IMG/VR virus record: IMGVR_UViG_3300038463_000128
Coordinates: 1-35,696 of that record
DNA: 35,696 bases
Origin: a virus
Strand: one strand, 5' to 3'
Numbering within the stretch: the stretch's first letter is position 1; every line of letters begins with the position of its first letter. A program made the translations under genes and the position numbers. The notes under the pieces are model-generated. The model was not told the origin of the DNA. It saw only the letters and a program-made list of their open reading frames with translations, and did no database searches. Positions 3,084-28,463 of this stretch are shown here, piece by piece.

Positions 3084-3641
3084 TTATTTACTTCCTTTGT
3101 TTAAAAAGCTACGAACATGAGAGCCACTTTCAATGTGAGCTCCTGCAATTGTCTCTCCAGATTTGAGGGCTTCTTTTAAAAGATCAGAGCGAATAATTGT
3201 CTTTTGCACAACTTCTTTGAATTTAGAGGGCACTTGAGCTTCGTCGTCCACAACAAGCGACGGAGCATTATTCACAAGCTTCCATTTGTAATCTCGCCCA
3301 ACAATCTCATCAACGCCCAATTCAATACAAGCCATCTTAAGAGAGTATTTCATACTGTCGGTATAGCTTAGAAATGCCTTAGCAACGCGAGAGAAGTTAG
3401 CGGCGCGCTCATTCCATAAATCAGCTTGTGATTTGAGATCATCTATAACGTGTTTGTAGGCATCACATTTCTCTGGAATCTTTTCGTGTAGCTTCGATAA
3501 AGATTTCTCAATATCTAAAGTAATCTCTCCAGCGTTCTCAATGAGAATTTCTTGTATTTTGTGTGAGAGTTGAACTAGTTCGAAAAGGGATTCATCTCGT
3601 TTAATTGGTATATTATTAGATTTCGTAGTTTTCTCGTTCAC
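3084..3641 (-). CDS. Gp157-like phage protein (Sipho_Gp157 family)
   Basis: 185 residues from a GTG at 3639-3641 placed 6 bases after a GGAGG ribosome site; an upstream in-frame ATG at 3680 would lie deep in the previous gene and lacks such a site. The long helical region (about 20-120) is followed by the family's signature order: WKLVNNAPSLVVDDE, then QVPSKFKE, SDLLKEALKSGE and IAGAHIESGSHVR. Gp157-like proteins accompany phage recombination genes and have been linked to phage resistance, but their biochemical role is not settled. It overlaps the preceding zinc gene by 26 bp and ends just before the putative annealing protein. Confidence 0.85.
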   Translation of the reverse strand: MNEKTTKSNNIPIKRDESLFELVQLSHKIQEILIENAGEITLDIEKSLSKLHEKIPEKCDAYKHVIDDLKSQADLWNERAANFSRVAKAFLSYTDSMKYSLKMACIELGVDEIVGRDYKWKLVNNAPSLVVDDEAQVPSKFKEVVQKTIIRSDLLKEALKSGETIAGAHIESGSHVRSFLNKGSK

Positions 3642-3798
3642 GGCTAGCCTCCAATAATTGTTCTTCATATTCCAAATCATCCATGTAAATCAGAGAATCT
3701 TCTGACTTACATCTGGCGCAGAGTTCATAAGTTTCAAAATCTTCGACCTTAGTTATAACCTCGGGATTTATATGGCCACATTCATTGCATAGAATCAT
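3616..3798 (-). CDS. Small zinc-ribbon protein
   Basis: 60 residues with two CxxC knuckles, CNEC at residues 4-7 and CARC at 27-30, which together would bind one zinc ion. The C-terminal half is acidic (MDDLEYEEQLLEASRERE). It overlaps the next gene upstream by 17 bp and the Gp157-like gene downstream by 26 bp. The partner (DNA, RNA or protein) is not visible in the sequence. Confidence 0.75.
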   Translation of the reverse strand: MILCNECGHINPEVITKVEDFETYELCARCKSEDSLIYMDDLEYEEQLLEASRERENYEI

Positions 3799-4823: not shown

Positions 4824-5690
4824 GTGACTATCGATGAGCTCTTTGCCAAATGCTTCGCAGATCACTGGGATAGTCCAAGATTCAACCTATCAGGGCACGC
4901 GCTAGAAGTTCGAGCCAAATACAAAAATCATATAAAACCAGTTTTCGGAGCAATTGATTACCTATCGGTAACTCGCGTTCAAATTAGAGACTTCCATAAA
5001 TCATTTGCAAAAACCCCAGTCACAGGCAATAGGTTACTCGAAATCATATCCAAACTCTATAAATTCAGTATCGAGCGAGAATGGAATGCCGGCGGCTTTA
5101 ATCCGGTCATTGGCATTAAGCACTTTACTGAGAGAAAAAGGCGACGTTATGCCTCAGAAACGGAAATCAAAAAAGTCGGGGAAATCCTCGATAAGTTGTA
5201 TAAAACACAACCTCTTGAAATCACTTTTCTCTACACACTCCTCTTCACGGGAGCTCGCCCTCGCTCTATTGAACGTTCTAGATGGTCGGAGTTTACAGAG
5301 TCTTCGGGCTTCGGAGTACTCGTCTTTGATGGCAAAAGCACAGAAGCTACGGGAGACCCTGAATCGGTCATACTCCCACCAAAGATAATGGAATTGATCC
5401 ATAAGTTGCCGAAACGATCGGATGGCCTTATTTTTGGTATTCCTTCACCTGGTTACCTGTTTAGGAAAATAAGGAAAGAAGCTGGATGCGAGGACCTTTG
5501 GCTGAGAGATTTTCGCAGAACTTTTGCAACTGTTGGCATGAGCAATAAAGTTGATATGAAAGTAATCGGAAAGCTCCTGAACCATCATTCAACGCAAACG
5601 ACCGACCGCTACGCCTTGCTCGATGATTCTGCCAGGCTCGAAGCCGTGACCGCGATATCCGCTAAGCTTGATTCAATTCTTAAGAAGTGA
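4824..5690 (+). CDS. int: Tyrosine recombinase / phage integrase
   Basis: 288 residues from a GTG at 4824; a TAA two codons upstream in frame excludes an earlier start. Residues 1-100 form a SAM-like core-binding domain, and 105-285 the catalytic domain. Catalytic residues visible are R145 (TGARPRS), K171 (FDGKST), R231 (DFRRTF), H254 (LLNHHS) and nucleophile Y263 (DRYALL). The usual histidine of the H-x-x-R motif is Arg228 (LRDFRR). There is no extra arm-binding domain, so it is shorter than lambda-type integrases. It recombines phage attP with a host attB. It is bracketed by two copies of the junction inverted repeat. Confidence 0.93.
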   Translation: MTIDELFAKCFADHWDSPRFNLSGHALEVRAKYKNHIKPVFGAIDYLSVTRVQIRDFHKSFAKTPVTGNRLLEIISKLYKFSIEREWNAGGFNPVIGIKHFTERKRRRYASETEIKKVGEILDKLYKTQPLEITFLYTLLFTGARPRSIERSRWSEFTESSGFGVLVFDGKSTEATGDPESVILPPKIMELIHKLPKRSDGLIFGIPSPGYLFRKIRKEAGCEDLWLRDFRRTFATVGMSNKVDMKVIGKLLNHHSTQTTDRYALLDDSARLEAVTAISAKLDSILKK

Positions 5691-16742: not shown

Positions 16743-16916
16743 TTGGAAAAGGGTCCTACTCCGAAAGAAATGGCAGATACTTACTGGAGAAGAATAAGAA
16801 CAGGTTCTATCTCTGAAGTTACTTCCATGATTGAAAAAGTCAAAAGTCTTGATGCTAAATCTTACTGGACTGAAGTTCTTGCTCATTTAAACCTTAAAAC
16901 TAAGGGTAAAAAATGA
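16743..16916 (+). CDS. 57-residue helical protein between gp4-like and gp10-like genes
   Basis: Starts at a TTG placed directly after the gp4-like TAA and ends with a TGA overlapping the ATG of the gp10-like gene (ATGA), so it fills the gap without waste. It begins MEKGPTPKEMADTYWRRIRT and is predicted to be helical with tryptophans (AKSYWTEVLAHLN) and a lysine-rich end. No family recognised. A neck or tail-assembly helper is a guess from position. Confidence 0.65.
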   Translation: MEKGPTPKEMADTYWRRIRTGSISEVTSMIEKVKSLDAKSYWTEVLAHLNLKTKGKK

Positions 16917-18349
16917 GATTCCCAGGATTTATTGGTCCCACATATCAATTAAGTTCTATTAATTACGAATGCCAGAGATGCATAAATATGTATCCAGAAA
17001 TGGATGAGATCCATACAGGCAAAGAGGGTGAAGTTGCATCTCTTATCGGGACTCCTGGATTAACACTTCTTCAAACTATAGGTTCGGGCCCAATCCGTGG
17101 AGTCTGGTACACTACCACGGGAGTATTATACGTTGTGAGTGGAAACACTCTCTATAGCGTGACTTCCGCTTGGGTCGCTACATCAATTGGGACACTTTTG
17201 ACTTTTAGTGGCCAAGTTGGAATGGCAGATAATGGATTTTATCTAGTCGTTGTAGACGGTGTAAATGGGTATTATGTCGATTTCACAATACCTGGAACTC
17301 TAACTCAAATTACAGATCTCAATTGGCTAGGGTCTAATGTTGTAGCTTACATGGATGGTTATTTTATATTCTGCGCTCCAAACTCAGCAGAGTTTTACCT
17401 ATCTGATTTAAATGCCGTGACCTTTAATGCTCCGGCAAACACTGCAAAGAATGGATTTCCAGATAATATCTCGGCCATTGTCTCTAATAATAGAAACCTA
17501 TGGCTATTTGGGGAAGTTACAACAGAAGTTTGGTTTGACTCTGGAGATAACCTAAATCCATTTCAATATATTTCAGGCTCGATGCTTTCTTATGGATGTG
17601 CGGCTACTTACTCTCCAGCGGTGTTATTTAATACTGTATTTTGGCTTGGCCAAGATACTTCTGGATATGGAATGGTCTTTATGGCTAACGGTTATTCACC
17701 TAAAAGAATCAGTACTCATGCAGTTGAATTAGCGTTTCAAAGCTATTCAACAATAAGTGACGCCATTGGTTTTACGTATCAAGAAAATGGCCATCAGTTC
17801 TATATACTCACATTTCCTACGGCCAATGCGACCTGGGGCTTTGATTGCGAAACTCAGATGTGGCATGAGAGAGCTTATTTAAATCAGGGTCAACTCCAAA
17901 GGCATCGCGCTAATTGTTATACATATGCATTTAATAGCGTTCATTTGGTTGGTGATTATGCCAATGGGAATATCTATCAAATGTCATCTTCAGTTTATAG
18001 CGATAACGGTGCTGCAATCTTAAGACAACGAGTAACTCCACATATGTCAAAAGACATGGTTAGAATATTCCATTCAAGCCTTCAGTTGGATCTCGAAACA
18101 GCGGTAGGACTTGATGGTATTCAACAAGGCACAAATCCTCAAGCCATGCTCGATTGGAGTAATGACGGGGGCCACACATGGTCTAATCAAATGTGGTCTA
18201 CAATGTGTAAGATCGGGAATACCACAGATCGAGTTATTTGGCGACGTCTTGGTCAATCAAGAAACAGGGTTTATAGAGTTTCAATTTCTGATCCAGTCAA
18301 AGTAGTTATGATCGGTGCTGAGATTGAAGTAGAACAGGGGGCAAGTTGA
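16913..18349 (+). CDS. P22 gp10-like packaged-DNA stabilisation protein
   Basis: 478 residues against 472 in P22 gp10. It opens with MRFPGFIGPTYQLSSINYEC then QRCINMYPEMDE, and contains repeated beta-propeller-like strands (GVWYTTTGVLYVVSGNTLY, FILWFGEVTTEVWFDSG-like: NLWLFGEVTTEVWFDSGDN), both standard for the family. gp10 attaches below gp4 and carries the tail needle and spikes. Its end overlaps the next gene as TTGA. Confidence 0.92.
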   Translation: MRFPGFIGPTYQLSSINYECQRCINMYPEMDEIHTGKEGEVASLIGTPGLTLLQTIGSGPIRGVWYTTTGVLYVVSGNTLYSVTSAWVATSIGTLLTFSGQVGMADNGFYLVVVDGVNGYYVDFTIPGTLTQITDLNWLGSNVVAYMDGYFIFCAPNSAEFYLSDLNAVTFNAPANTAKNGFPDNISAIVSNNRNLWLFGEVTTEVWFDSGDNLNPFQYISGSMLSYGCAATYSPAVLFNTVFWLGQDTSGYGMVFMANGYSPKRISTHAVELAFQSYSTISDAIGFTYQENGHQFYILTFPTANATWGFDCETQMWHERAYLNQGQLQRHRANCYTYAFNSVHLVGDYANGNIYQMSSSVYSDNGAAILRQRVTPHMSKDMVRIFHSSLQLDLETAVGLDGIQQGTNPQAMLDWSNDGGHTWSNQMWSTMCKIGNTTDRVIWRRLGQSRNRVYRVSISDPVKVVMIGAEIEVEQGAS

Positions 18350-23535: not shown

Positions 23536-23795
23536 TTACTCAACCTATGCCAATAGCTCCAAACCAAATTGCAAAGCCTGCTATGGGCGAAGAAAAGTGG
23601 ATGAATGATGGCCTCCAAAAGCTAAAGGGCCATGTTGGTGACGAAGATCGTGCTTTATTAGAAGAACATGGCGGAAAGCTAATGCTCGATCCAAAGATGA
23701 AGCAACTTCTAATAACCGCTTCAAACTATGAACCTGGATCAAAACCACTAGATGATATCATTGGACATATCAAGAAAAGTTTGGCAGCGAAATGA
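23532..23795 (+). CDS. Small protein between ejection and fibre genes
   Basis: 87 residues, coupled on both sides by ATGA overlaps. Mostly helical: EEKWMNDGLQKLKGHVGDED then EEHGGKLMLDPKMKQLLITA, and DDIIGHIKKSLAAK. No family recognised. Its place between the ejection proteins and tail fibres suggests a tail-assembly helper or minor virion protein. Confidence 0.6.
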   Translation: MITQPMPIAPNQIAKPAMGEEKWMNDGLQKLKGHVGDEDRALLEEHGGKLMLDPKMKQLLITASNYEPGSKPLDDIIGHIKKSLAAK

Positions 23796-25582
23796 CGGCT
23801 CAATTACTTCCAAACGTATATCAGCAATTCTTTGGAATAACTGGAACGTTTACAGGCCTTCCTTTAGTAGGGGGCCTTCTTTATTCTTATCAAGCGGGAA
23901 CTTCGACGCCACAAGCGACGTATACTGATGAGACTGCTCTAACAGCAAACACAAATCCCATAGTTTTAAATTCTGTAGGTGCCGCGAATATTTGGATGAG
24001 TGAGAATTCCTATAAGTTCGTGCTCACAGATTCTCTAGGTGTGGTTCAATGGACCGTCGATAATGTTAAATATATCAATCTAGGCACAATTGATAAAACC
24101 ATGCTCGCAGATGATATAGCTGGACTTGGGCTATATCAAGACGGGACGGGGGCTTTGAATGCCGATGTCGATAACGTCACAATTGGAATAAATGGAAGTA
24201 ATGAGCTAGCTATTGTCGCACAATCATTAACTCCAAATAATTTCAATCCCAATAATGTAATGGAAGTTCTTTACAAATATGTGAGGGATTTTTCGGATCC
24301 TGGATCTATAAGACAAATTCCTCAATATGAATGGACGACGCCTACGCTTTTTGGCGGCTTCGGTAATGCTCCAACAAGTGCTGGAATTGCGAAATGGTGT
24401 CCAAGCGGAGAATTTTTAGCCGTTGGAAATGGAAGTTCCGCTTATTTAAACATTTATCAATTAGATGAAACTCAAGGAACATTAATAAATATTGGTCAAC
24501 CGGTATCACTTCCAACAAGCGGAGTTGTTAGCATTACCTGGTCGCCGTGTGGAGACTTCTTAGCTGTTGCAACAGTTAGCACTCCTTGGATTTATATTTA
24601 TCAAAAAGTTGGAGGAACTTTTAATCTGCTTCCAACTCCTTCATCTCTGCCAACTGGAGTTTCAAACATATTTGGAACATTTGTTGAGTTTTCTCCTAAC
24701 AGCGATTATTTGGGTCTTTCTTGGCAATACAAAAATATTGCTGGACAGACTGAGTTTGGATTTATTCTCTATAAGAGAGGGGGGTTTTTATCTGTAACCA
24801 ATACGGTTCCGGTCTCAACTCCAGTAGGCGTTGATTTTTCTGGAACTGGAACTGATTATTATGTAACAGGGGCAGCTAGCGGAGGATCTGATCCTACAAT
24901 AACCTACGCTGGCACTATTACTCCAAGTAATATTGATATACAAAATAACGGTGTTTTATTCACAGATATAACAAGTGCTGCCGGTTTGAGTGGTTTAACC
25001 GGTAACAGTGCTGGATTTCAATTCAAATGGTCTCATGATTCATCTTATTTGGCGATGTATGACCACAGTTCTCAAGTTATTGACATGTATTTCAGATCCG
25101 GAGATCAATTTACTGGTTTCACAGCTCCAGTTCTTAGCTCATATGTAGGAGATATATTTGATTTCGCATGGTCACCTGATGGGAATTTCTTTTCAGTTTT
25201 ATTAGCAGTCACTCCCTTTATATTGAATTTTCAAGTTGTAGAAGGAACGTTTACTCAACTATCAAATCCTCCAGTGTTAACGGCAGATTCAGGATCAGGA
25301 CTTTCTTGGTCACCTAATAGCGAATATTTAGCCTATGGGACAGGAAGCTCACCATATCTAGCAGTTTATAAAGTAACAAATCCAACGAGTACACCGGTTT
25401 TCACAATACAAGCCAATTTGAATACTCTTCCAGTGGGTTTACTTACAAATATTAGCTGGCATCCTACCAAGAAATACATAGCCCTTGGAAATACCGTAAC
25501 TCCATATGTTCAGGTCTATCAGACAGCTTCGGTCCTTCCTTCAAATGCATTTATATGGACGAGAGGAGTTCCAAATGTCTGA
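23792..25582 (+). CDS. Tail fibre with N-terminal anchor and seven-repeat beta-propeller
   Basis: 596 residues. Residues 4-92 (LLPNVYQQFFG ... YKFVLTDSLGVVQWTVDNV) are a virion-anchor domain shared with the next gene. From 198 to 577 a motif recurs seven times, each with a strand ending W/F-S-P-x-G/S-x-(Y/F)-L/I, then A-V, then a strand ending IYQ/VYK: 198-223, 246-270, 296-327, 409-434, 456-481, 503-527 and 552-577. This spacing is that of WD40/YVTN-type propeller blades, so a seven-bladed propeller is predicted. Blade 3-4 has a large insertion (about 330-405). The propeller probably binds the receptor. It replaces the usual P22 tailspike. Confidence 0.82.
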   Translation: MTAQLLPNVYQQFFGITGTFTGLPLVGGLLYSYQAGTSTPQATYTDETALTANTNPIVLNSVGAANIWMSENSYKFVLTDSLGVVQWTVDNVKYINLGTIDKTMLADDIAGLGLYQDGTGALNADVDNVTIGINGSNELAIVAQSLTPNNFNPNNVMEVLYKYVRDFSDPGSIRQIPQYEWTTPTLFGGFGNAPTSAGIAKWCPSGEFLAVGNGSSAYLNIYQLDETQGTLINIGQPVSLPTSGVVSITWSPCGDFLAVATVSTPWIYIYQKVGGTFNLLPTPSSLPTGVSNIFGTFVEFSPNSDYLGLSWQYKNIAGQTEFGFILYKRGGFLSVTNTVPVSTPVGVDFSGTGTDYYVTGAASGGSDPTITYAGTITPSNIDIQNNGVLFTDITSAAGLSGLTGNSAGFQFKWSHDSSYLAMYDHSSQVIDMYFRSGDQFTGFTAPVLSSYVGDIFDFAWSPDGNFFSVLLAVTPFILNFQVVEGTFTQLSNPPVLTADSGSGLSWSPNSEYLAYGTGSSPYLAVYKVTNPTSTPVFTIQANLNTLPVGLLTNISWHPTKKYIALGNTVTPYVQVYQTASVLPSNAFIWTRGVPNV

Positions 25583-26252
25583 GTTAGCTCCGGCATTTAG
25601 ACAGCAGTATTTTGATGCGAATGGATTGCCTTTAGCTGGAGGTTTTTTATATACTTATGCTGCAGGTACATCGACGCCGCTTGCGACCTATACCGATGAG
25701 ACTGGGCTTACTCCAAATACAAATCCAGTTGTTTTAGATTCTTCTGGACAGGCTTCAATATGGATTGGTCCAAGTTCATATAAATTTGTCCTAGAGGATT
25801 CTCTAAATAATGTTATTGAAACTGTAGATAACATTCAAAGTATTGCATCTCAAATTTTAGCATTATCATCAAGCTTTGATAGTGTGTCTGTTGCTTACAC
25901 TCAACTTCAAACTTCTGGAACTTCAAAAAACGTAGCCCTATTCACATTGCCAGCAGGATATATCTTAAAGAATATCGTCATAAAACACTCAACTAATTTC
26001 ATTGGAACTAGCATAACTGATGTTTATGCTCAAGTAGGGCCTACTGGTAATTTTACAGAGTTTATTAATCAATTTGATCTTTATCAATCAGTAGCGGATC
26101 AGTCATTTGATAACTCGACAACTGACTATATTGGATCGTGGGCAAACCCAACGATTATTTATTTGAATGCTGTGTCAACTGGAGCAAATCTTAGCGCTCT
26201 ATCTCAAGGATCAGTAACTGTTTATTATGAAATTGAAAACATGGTAGGGTAA
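25575..26252 (+). CDS. Second tail fibre/adaptor protein with the same anchor domain
   Basis: 225 residues from ATG 25575 (GAGGAG at 25562-25567), overlapping the propeller gene by 8 bp. Residues 4-88 repeat the anchor of the previous protein (AGTSTPLATYTDETGLTPNT, SYKFVLEDSLNNVIETVDN), and the DNA is similar as well, so a duplication. The remaining 135 residues are beta-rich (NVALFTLPAGYILKNIVIKH, ITDVYAQVGPTGNFTEF) and look like a jelly-roll. It could compete with or sit beside the propeller fibre on the same tail site. Confidence 0.78.
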   Translation: MSELAPAFRQQYFDANGLPLAGGFLYTYAAGTSTPLATYTDETGLTPNTNPVVLDSSGQASIWIGPSSYKFVLEDSLNNVIETVDNIQSIASQILALSSSFDSVSVAYTQLQTSGTSKNVALFTLPAGYILKNIVIKHSTNFIGTSITDVYAQVGPTGNFTEFINQFDLYQSVADQSFDNSTTDYIGSWANPTIIYLNAVSTGANLSALSQGSVTVYYEIENMVG

Positions 26253-28463
26253 ATGAAATATCTATTATTTATAGTATGTAATCTAGTATGGACTATAGCT
26301 CTGGCCCAACAAGGTGGAGTTTTCAATTACCTAACCCTAAATCCAAATTCACTACCCTCGAAATGTGGAAGTGGAACGCTTAGATTCTCATCTGGAAGCT
26401 CAACACTTAATCTTTGTTATCCTGCAAATACATGGACGGCAGTTGGGTCTGGCGGAGGTGGAGGAGTGAGTTCTGTGGCTCTTGCCGATGGCTCATCTAC
26501 TGCTATTTACTCAATTACTGGAAGTCCGGTTACTGGAAGCGGAACTTTAACTTTCAGTGCAAAAAATCAATCTGCTAATACTGTTTTTGCAGGTCCCAGT
26601 TCTGGCGGAGCTACTGACCCTACATTTAGATCACTTGTAGCCGCTGATATACCAACAACACTTAACACAACAACCGAATCTTCGCTCACAACAGTCGGAA
26701 CAATTGGAACTGGCATTTGGCAAGGAACCAAGATTTCTTCAACTTATGGTGGAACTGGGATAAATTCAGGATCATCAACTGGAGTTCCTTTTATTTCTTC
26801 TGGAGCTTGGGGTGTTGATACAACTTTACCGAACACTCTTGGTGGAACTGGGCAAGGATCAAACTTTAATCAATACGGGGCTTGTTATGCTCCAACCACG
26901 ACAACCTTAGGAACAACATCGGCTGGAACAGCAAATTACCCTTTAGTGGCTAACTCTTCGGCTGCACCTACATTCCAACTTTTACCAATAGCTGGAGGTG
27001 GAACTGGAGCTGCAATATCTGCTACTCAATGGGGTGTTCCATACTTCTCTGCTACGACAACTATGGCTTCTACTGCTGCGGGGACTCTTGGAAATCCATT
27101 AATAAGTGGAGCAACAGGGGCGCCTTCGTTTAGCGCAACGCCTACAATTGCCAATATCATCGATACCTCAAACGTTTTAAATATCGAAGACAGTACAACA
27201 AATAGTAAGGTCTTGGCGTTCAATGCTAGCAATAACTCTGCATCTACAACGCTTACTCTAGAGCCAACTCAAACAACTTCTCAGATTTTGAAATTCCCAA
27301 ATATAACAGCAGGTGATTCGGTTGCAACACTTGGACTTGCTCAAACATTTGCAAATGCTCAGACATTTACAAGCGCTCCTGTCTTCTCATCAGTCACGGC
27401 GAGTCAGGCTCTAACAGTAAATGGAAGTAAGGCACTCACATCAAACGCTTTTAGCTCTTCCCCAGCAGCATCTACTATTGCCGAATGGGATGCTAATAAA
27501 AATATGTCTTTTGACTCTTATATCCCTGCAGGCACTTCAACTGCTACCGCTGCCGGGACTACAGCCTTATTGGTTGGGAGTAACTATTATCAATTTTTCA
27601 CTGGGTCAACAACTCAGACAGTAACATTGCCAGTTGTAACAGGACTTGCTCAAGGGCAAGGGTTTGAAATATTCAATCTTTCAACTGGCGTTGTAACTGT
27701 AGAAAGCTCTGGAGCAAACGTAATACAGGCGATGGCGGCGAATACTGTTCTTAAACTTGTATGTATAAATACGAGCGGCGGCACAGGGACAGCATCATGG
27801 TCTTGGATGTATGAATCAGCTCAAGGATCATTGCCAGCAGGGTTTTCTGGACTTAATACAAACGGAATTATTTACGCAACAAGTGGAACGGCGGTTAGTT
27901 CTACGGCGGTAGGGTCAAGTGGAAGTGTTTTAACTTCTAATGGTGCCGGAGTTGCTCCTACATTTCAAGCTGCAGCAACATCAGTAACTGGGTCTTATTT
28001 TTCTGGCAGTACTGTGAATAGTCCTACAGTTGGCTGGGTATATTCTACAACGGCACTAGCTGACCCATCAACTACCTCGACAAACACCTTAACGACTAGA
28101 AAATCATCTGGTATTACGGTAACAGCTGCGGCTGGTAGTTTACCTGGGATTGTTTTTACTCCAGGCAGTAGCTCACAAGTTTTTCAAATAACCGCTAGTT
28201 TCACTTACGGTGGCGTGGCGAGTTCGGGAGACGATCCCTCATTTAGCCTCACAGACGGCACAACAATAATAAGCACGAGAGATTCACAGCCGGGGGCAGT
28301 TTCAAGCTTCCCGTCAATGACCCTAACTGGGATATATGCGCCTGCAAATACTTCGGCAAATACAATTAAAATTCAAGGCGCTGTTAATGCCGGAACTATA
28401 GCGATTATAAGCGCAGGGTCTATTGTTCCCTCTATTGAATGGACAGTTATAAGAATTTTCTAA
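26253..28463 (+). CDS. Large fibre-like protein with an N-terminal signal peptide
   Basis: 736 residues. MKYLLFIVCNLVWTIALA followed by QQGG is a standard secretion signal, unusual for a virion fibre, which assembles in the cytoplasm. The body is rich in T, S, G and A with repeated fibre motifs (GGTG at several places, GTLGNPLISGATGAPSFS, VLTSNGAGVAPTFQA) and a two-cysteine module near the start (SKCGSGTLRF ... NLCYPANTW). The C-terminal 120 residues are a beta-rich globular part. Either it is a fibre whose hydrophobic N-terminus is used for virion attachment, or a secreted surface protein of the infected cell. Its last 141 bp overlap the convergent O-antigen gene. Confidence 0.7.
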   Translation: MKYLLFIVCNLVWTIALAQQGGVFNYLTLNPNSLPSKCGSGTLRFSSGSSTLNLCYPANTWTAVGSGGGGGVSSVALADGSSTAIYSITGSPVTGSGTLTFSAKNQSANTVFAGPSSGGATDPTFRSLVAADIPTTLNTTTESSLTTVGTIGTGIWQGTKISSTYGGTGINSGSSTGVPFISSGAWGVDTTLPNTLGGTGQGSNFNQYGACYAPTTTTLGTTSAGTANYPLVANSSAAPTFQLLPIAGGGTGAAISATQWGVPYFSATTTMASTAAGTLGNPLISGATGAPSFSATPTIANIIDTSNVLNIEDSTTNSKVLAFNASNNSASTTLTLEPTQTTSQILKFPNITAGDSVATLGLAQTFANAQTFTSAPVFSSVTASQALTVNGSKALTSNAFSSSPAASTIAEWDANKNMSFDSYIPAGTSTATAAGTTALLVGSNYYQFFTGSTTQTVTLPVVTGLAQGQGFEIFNLSTGVVTVESSGANVIQAMAANTVLKLVCINTSGGTGTASWSWMYESAQGSLPAGFSGLNTNGIIYATSGTAVSSTAVGSSGSVLTSNGAGVAPTFQAAATSVTGSYFSGSTVNSPTVGWVYSTTALADPSTTSTNTLTTRKSSGITVTAAAGSLPGIVFTPGSSSQVFQITASFTYGGVASSGDDPSFSLTDGTTIISTRDSQPGAVSSFPSMTLTGIYAPANTSANTIKIQGAVNAGTIAIISAGSIVPSIEWTVIRIF

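Follow-up and report, generated by a model that had tools for sequence, protein, structure and literature searches.

Genes and features at the locus

The window, which here means the whole 35,696-nucleotide stretch of viral DNA that was analysed (IMG/VR record IMGVR_UViG_3300038463_000128), carries a set of P22-like structural genes. These encode a portal (phrog_156, E 7.7e-141), a coat protein (phrog_283) and the head closure protein Hc3 (phrog_578), and a DNA ejection gene is also present. Among the best matches of the portal are P22-like portals from Manatee Spring phages and Rhodoferax phage P26218. By this gene content, the genome is that of a P22-like podovirus. Genes for an integrase and a Mu Gam-like end-protection protein are found at 4824-5690 and 3084-3680, suggesting that the phage may be temperate.

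The subject of this analysis is an ORF at 23792-25582 on the plus strand, which encodes a tail protein of 596 amino acids. Its N-terminal domain is shared with many phage tail proteins, and positions 24383-25525, corresponding to residues 198-578, hold a series of WD40-like repeats. The features are as follows, with the number of shuffled sequences that scored as high as each repeat unit.

23792-24082, plus strand: N-terminal virion anchor (residues 1-97), recognised by phrog_26190, by 7eeq and by identity to the next gene and to ctNMl277
24083-24382, plus strand: linker (residues 98-197)
24383-24526, plus strand: propeller unit 1 (residues 198-245), 0 of 2000 shuffles as high
24527-24676, plus strand: propeller unit 2 (residues 246-295), 0 of 2000 shuffles as high
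24677-24826, plus strand: propeller unit 3 (residues 296-345), with long strands, 41 of 2000 shuffles as high
24827-25015, plus strand: disputed stretch (residues 346-408), modelled as a degenerate fourth blade but an insert if the ring has seven blades
25016-25156, plus strand: propeller unit 5 (residues 409-455), 0 of 2000 shuffles as high
25157-25294, plus strand: propeller unit 6 (residues 456-501), 0 of 2000 shuffles as high
25295-25444, plus strand: propeller unit 7 (residues 502-551), 0 of 2000 shuffles as high
25445-25525, plus strand: propeller unit 8 (residues 552-578), three strands, 0 of 2000 shuffles as high
25526-25582, plus strand: C-terminal tail and stop codon (residues 579-596), pLDDT ~28, overlaps the beginning of the downstream gene
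25575-26252, plus strand: second anchor gene, 225 amino acids, with a different distal part and an anchor of 59% identity

The gene directly downstream, at 25575-26252, begins with the same anchor, and the two genes share 75% nucleotide identity over 114 nucleotides. It is followed at 26253-28463 by a gene for a fibre-like protein of 736 amino acids, for which short matches to Achromobacter phage Motura were detected and no Pfam or PHROG family was found. By eye, the first residues of this protein resemble a Sec signal peptide, which would be odd for a phage tail component.

The anchor and its cargo

Residues 1-97 of the tail protein match phrog_26190 (E 5.6e-13). They are 53% identical to the corresponding part of ctNMl277 and 59% identical to the translation of 25575-25868 in the second anchor gene. 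Residues 20-66 also weakly match (E 1.7e-4) the solved structure 7eeq, a "Tailspike head-binding domain" of cyanophage Pam1. The protein therefore has the N-terminal head-binding or anchor domain by which P22-type tail fibres and spikes are recognised.

Matches to the tail protein at E <=0.01 were found in 39 phage records, most of them over the anchor alone, and none covers 80% of the protein. In named phages, proteins bearing this anchor are annotated as tail spike, colanidase, pectate lyase superfamily protein, SGNH hydrolase-type esterase or hypothetical protein. An alignment of the anchor led to at least 559 confirmed IMG/VR loci, of which we kept 80. Each of the 80 has one anchor ORF; two anchor ORFs in one locus, the arrangement in the window, were seen in none of them, although many of these loci end early. 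The propeller was likewise absent from all 80 (phmmer, E <=1e-3).

To survey what the anchor carries, we scanned with Pfam 50 ORFs with distinct distal parts together with both window proteins. Among these 52 proteins we detected Collar (9), pectate-lyase-like (9), right-handed beta-helix (8), NosD (8) and E1_FCCH (3) domains, as well as endosialidase chaperone (2), DUF4183 (2), depolymerase C-terminal (1) and endosialidase N-terminal extension (1) domains, where a single protein may match several of these overlapping families. Propeller families occur in 1 of the 52, the window protein itself. The census is partial, since most of the 52 proteins have no Pfam match beyond the listed families. 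Searches of phage records, IMG/VR and GTDB contigs, which reach fairly similar sequences, uncovered no second fusion of this anchor to a propeller.

The linker that follows the anchor (residues 98-197) is likely a shaft or neck. Searched alone, it gave no match among 50,697 phage records, and its residues 145-194 have pLDDT values below 50 in the AF2 model described below.

WD40-like repeats

The earlier note had claimed seven copies of a repeat motif with a trailing IYQ in residues 198-577. A motif search located seven copies of the motif core, starting at residues 202, 250, 300, 413, 460, 506 and 556, but the literal IYQ ending holds for units 1 and 2 only, and VYQ, VYK, LYK, MYF or NFQ is found elsewhere. 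The large gap reported between the third and fourth copies is real: unit 3 and the next detected unit are 113 residues apart, compared with spacings of 46-50 for the others.

Aligned with itself, the region of residues 156-596 gives a best off-diagonal score of 200, whereas shuffled sequences average 41.5 and reach at most 54 (n=60), and we therefore reject a chance repeat. In leave-one-out HMM tests, in which the unit under test was excluded from the profile and compared with 2000 shuffles, six of the seven units outscore every shuffle; for unit 3, 41 shuffles scored at least as high.

Two Pfam propeller families match above their curated cut-offs, namely the WDR19 propeller (E 1.3e-12, 47.8 bits versus 27) and ANAPC4_WD40 (E 7.7e-6, 26.5 bits versus 22.9). 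The generic WD40 model PF00400 falls below its cut-off on this protein (15.9 versus 27 bits), and a scan against NCBIfam found no family. Defined as tandem repeats of 40-60 residues that are recognised by WD40 profiles, WD40 proteins include this one.

Predicted structure

An AF2 model of residues 145-596, made with 49 sequences, has a mean pLDDT of 70.9 and a pTM of 0.74, and 271 of its 452 residues have a pLDDT of at least 70. The alignment behind it used 48 of 89 listed segments from relatives, which have 22-30% identity to the tail protein and were each trimmed to eight repeats. A single-sequence model of the whole protein is poor (pLDDT 35.8, pTM 0.28), so the propeller model depends on these distant relatives. 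As modelled from rows trimmed to eight repeats, the predicted fold is a closed ring of four-stranded blades, that is, a beta-propeller.

In a Foldseek search of the PDB with this model, there were 1189 matches at E <=0.001. WD40 domains and designed propellers make up most of the best ones, with E-values down to 3.1e-13; some of the rows are 6-phosphogluconolactonases. The best 28 rows from VIA-align are WD40-type rings with Z from 35 down to 30, superposed on 329-363 residues with an rmsd of 2.4-3.5, and the top row reaches Z 35.1 and an rmsd of 2.4 over 332 residues. The highest rows, at Z 35 to 32, are Rsa4, ODA16, TBL1XR1, Sif2 and Sqt1, all of them eight-bladed. Tako8, a designed protein whose entry title says eight-bladed, matches the model at Z 29.1 with 311 of 313 residues aligned, and rows from rank 34 down have Z <=24.6. 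Among viral protein models in BFVD, 188 from phages and giant viruses match the model at E <=0.001; they include the protein of POR1, giant-virus proteins and one whose length fits that of the CGphi29 protein.

The earlier note had proposed structure prediction and a fold search, with a confident different fold, such as a beta-helix, as the outcome that would count against a propeller. Both analyses gave a beta-propeller, with WD40 rings as the best matches. A beta-helix is rejected on the model and the structure matches, and no beta-helix family was found in the Pfam scan of the protein itself. The proposal of an anchor joined to a WD40-like propeller is thus borne out by phrog_26190, the Pfam WD40 families and the AF2 model.

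Seven blades or eight

The earlier note described the propeller as seven-bladed, with a large insert between blades 3 and 4 that might be a loop reaching the receptor. Sequence repeats do number seven, and relatives mostly have sevens, but the model closes with eight blades, albeit from an alignment whose rows had been cut to eight repeats. We somewhat favour an eight-bladed ring in which residues 346-408 form a poorly defined, degenerate fourth blade. This reading of the supposed insert follows from the fit of the model ring, which is best to eight-bladed propellers, and it is not independent of the alignment, since the cutting of each row to eight repeats could push the model there. Within residues 346-408 the model has strands near 347-349, 356-359 and 370-373 with low pLDDT, falling to about 39-60; these short, low-confidence strands do not bear out the idea of a loop that reaches the receptor.

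The competing description of the fold, to which we give a smaller though substantial chance, is a seven-bladed propeller with an insert of ~60 residues, either a loop or a small subdomain, between blades 3 and 4. It concerns the fold alone and is compatible with a receptor-binding role. Both the motif search and the HMMs detect seven repeats, and residues 342-408 score like shuffles with each of three HMMs (1619, 1138 and 552 as high, from 2000 shuffles per HMM, a few of which the program left unreported). Moreover, 14 repeats were counted in 64 of 80 IMG/VR relatives and 21 in six of them, while the proteins of POR1 and ZRG1 have seven each.

Against seven blades, the ring in the model resembles eight-bladed proteins more closely than those with seven, and there are signals at both edges of the disputed stretch. 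The d-to-a junction at 331-380, which includes part of unit 3, scores 8.2 bits, and 30 of 3000 shuffles are equal or higher; with a second HMM, built from the protein's own units, 188 of 3000 are as high. The segment at 385-435, which lies before unit 5 and contains part of it, is matched by 0 of 3000 shuffles with both HMMs. These junctions appear as if a whole extra unit lay between them, and the room between units 3 and 5 is about one unit. Unit 8 has three strands and would be closed by a strand from the N-terminal side, whose source may be the end portion of the linker. Given such a strand, either blade count is possible.

Relatives of the propeller

With the tail protein as query, no relatives were found in IMG/VR viral contigs or GTDB contigs, and searches for related loci with the CGphi29 and POR1 proteins also found none. 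In phages, tblastn matches over the repeats were detected in ctYwJ313 (27% identity), XacN1 (25%), CGphi29 (25%) and POR1 (25%), and ZRG1 was reached via POR1. The ctYwJ313 gene lies ~2 kb downstream of one annotated "phage stabilization protein". Its product, used as a query against IMG/VR, gave 381 related stretches, of which we kept 80, and all 80 match the window propeller (phmmer). These loci (L008-L087) form a large family of propeller proteins in viral contigs, mostly with 14 or 21 repeats, and the PHROG related to them has no known function.

An HMM of the units of these relatives counts 14 repeats in 64 of the 80, 21 in 6 and 9 to 13 in the remaining 10. The same HMM finds seven repeats in POR1, seven in ZRG1, six in CGphi29 and seven in the window protein. 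By these counts, the repeats of this propeller family mostly come in multiples of seven. An anchor of the window type was found nowhere in the DNA available for the 80 relatives.

In ZRG1, the gene at L091:4164-5966 encodes a tail terminator domain (phrog_4204, E 1.6e-14, residues 1-145), a proline-rich linker and a seven-repeat WD40-like propeller. Judged from this domain order, the propeller would be fused to the tail terminator as if displayed on the virion. For the CGphi29 protein, we also considered a propeller lying within a tail-collar domain and dropped this reading, as the Collar match scores 12.6 bits against a cut-off of 24.

Possible roles of the tail protein

The anchor and the WD40-like propeller make it very likely that the protein is a tail fibre or spike, as the earlier note had it. 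We consider it probable that the protein serves a P22-type podovirus as a receptor-binding fibre or spike, attached by its anchor and displaying a WD40-like propeller that binds a ligand on the host surface. The other distal parts found on the same anchor include collar, pectate-lyase and beta-helix domains, so a receptor-binding tip is the most likely function of this one. In the proposed mechanism, the N-terminal anchor would fix the protein, probably a trimer as known head-binding domains suggest, on the tail, and the short linker would display one WD40-like beta-propeller per chain. The exposed surface of the propeller would bind a host protein or sugar, presumably without catalysis. WD40 rings are typically binding platforms for other molecules. 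No enzyme family reaches its cut-off for this protein in Pfam and none appears in NCBIfam, and a motif search found no Asp-box, which lowers the chance of enzyme activity as far as sequence signatures can indicate it.

The main alternative, a propeller that cuts surface polysaccharide, as in the K1F endosialidase or other propeller depolymerases, is improbable by our estimate. The anchor does carry pectate-lyase-like and beta-helix domains elsewhere, and it is found on a PBR31 protein annotated as a polysaccharide depolymerase. There is also a Pfam Lactonase match below cut-off (16.3 versus 21.7 bits), and the Foldseek rows include 6-phosphogluconolactonases. However, the missing Asp-box and enzyme families argue against a depolymerase, and both Pfam and the structure searches give as top matches WD40 rings, which are typically of the binding type. 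On a general level, DepoScope identified n-bladed propellers in 119 of 984 phage proteins whose folds degrade polysaccharides, according to extracts of that paper (PMC11326577), which favours a degrading role.

Still less probable is a structural adaptor, whose propeller would bind partners within the virion, such as the second anchor protein or the 736-amino-acid protein, rather than the host. The tandem of two same-anchor proteins would suit such a function, and excerpts of two papers describe seven-bladed propellers as structural parts within the tail nozzle or muzzle of SU10 and a crassvirus (PMC9509320, PMC10172136). On the other hand, the C-terminal propeller forms the distal part of a protein whose anchor bears fibre and spike domains elsewhere, and a separate head-closure gene is already present at 16913-18349. 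Because of that gene, we reject the reading of the protein as a nozzle component.

If the protein is the receptor-binding fibre or spike that we favour, a WD40-like ring joins collar, pectate-lyase and beta-helix domains as cargo of a common podovirus anchor. The new element appears to be the fusion of such a ring to a P22-type anchor, which none of the other records searched was found to have. Ring-shaped binding domains of this sort, most familiar from the cells of animals and yeast, have been described in other phages before, so the protein combines known elements in a new way. Such rings are stable binders with variable surfaces, and finding them in use at the tip of a tail would suggest that phages can recognise hosts by adopting a general binding scaffold. 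With two same-anchor proteins side by side in one genome, the exchange of tips also becomes a testable idea.

A broader and rather speculative reading is that tailed phages use WD40-like propellers, much like their Ig-like domains, as a mobile module for display at various sites on the virion. Here, as an eight-bladed ring, the module would fill the position that spike enzymes often occupy and provide specificity for a protein or sugar instead of digesting. It would be attached to the P22-type anchor in the window and, with a proline-rich linker, to the tail terminator in ZRG1, and in environmental phages it would occur as double or triple rings that stand alone.

Comparison with known phage propellers

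The earlier note had regarded WD40-like propellers as rare in the receptor-binding parts of phage tails. This was overstated, as propellers are known in phage receptor-binding proteins (RBPs) and depolymerases, WD40 fibres are predicted in C. difficile phages, and 188 viral models match ours. In the open-licence literature we found nothing on seven-bladed phage tailspikes or on WD40 repeats in tails of uncultured Caudovirales, and a search for eight-bladed phage tail propellers returned only papers that are unrelated by title and opening lines of the abstract.

The closest relatives by sequence are those of ctYwJ313 (UOF80687, "wD40 repeat protein"), Salicola phage CGphi29 and Pseudomonas phages POR1 and ZRG1. 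Their repeats are homologous to those of the window protein, with 25-28% identity or a connection through POR1, and all match phrog_19311. They differ in that the DNA available for them shows no such anchor, and in that their repeats mostly number 7, 14 or 21. Conversely, the likeness to the 7eeq tailspike head-binding domain is confined to the anchor.

Other systems are likened by description. According to parts of one paper (PMC4901313), the RBP of Staphylococcus aureus phage phi11, Gp45, is a trimer in which each chain carries one propeller, and a cavity for sugar has been proposed. Unlike the window protein, it has five blades, belongs to a siphophage of a Gram-positive host and includes stem and tower domains. 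The same source names PRD1 P2 and PhiKZ gp131C, the latter seven-bladed, as further propellers in putative RBPs, but these belong to other virion types. In C. difficile phages, WD40 folds are predicted in a second potential tail fibre, and also in diffocin RBPs, as summarised in sections of a 2026 review (PMC13324602). The fibres of phiMMP03 and CDKM15 share with our protein the predicted WD40 fold, for which recognition of S-layer protein is proposed, although these phages and diffocin are contractile particles directed at a Gram-positive host. Finally, the K1F endosialidase is, like the proposed spike, a phage tailspike with a propeller domain, and as outlined in extracts of PMC12632334, its propeller holds the active site. 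That propeller is catalytic on polysialic acid and is combined with a beta-helix stalk, whereas no such signature was found in the window protein, whose WD40-like ring would bind its ligand.
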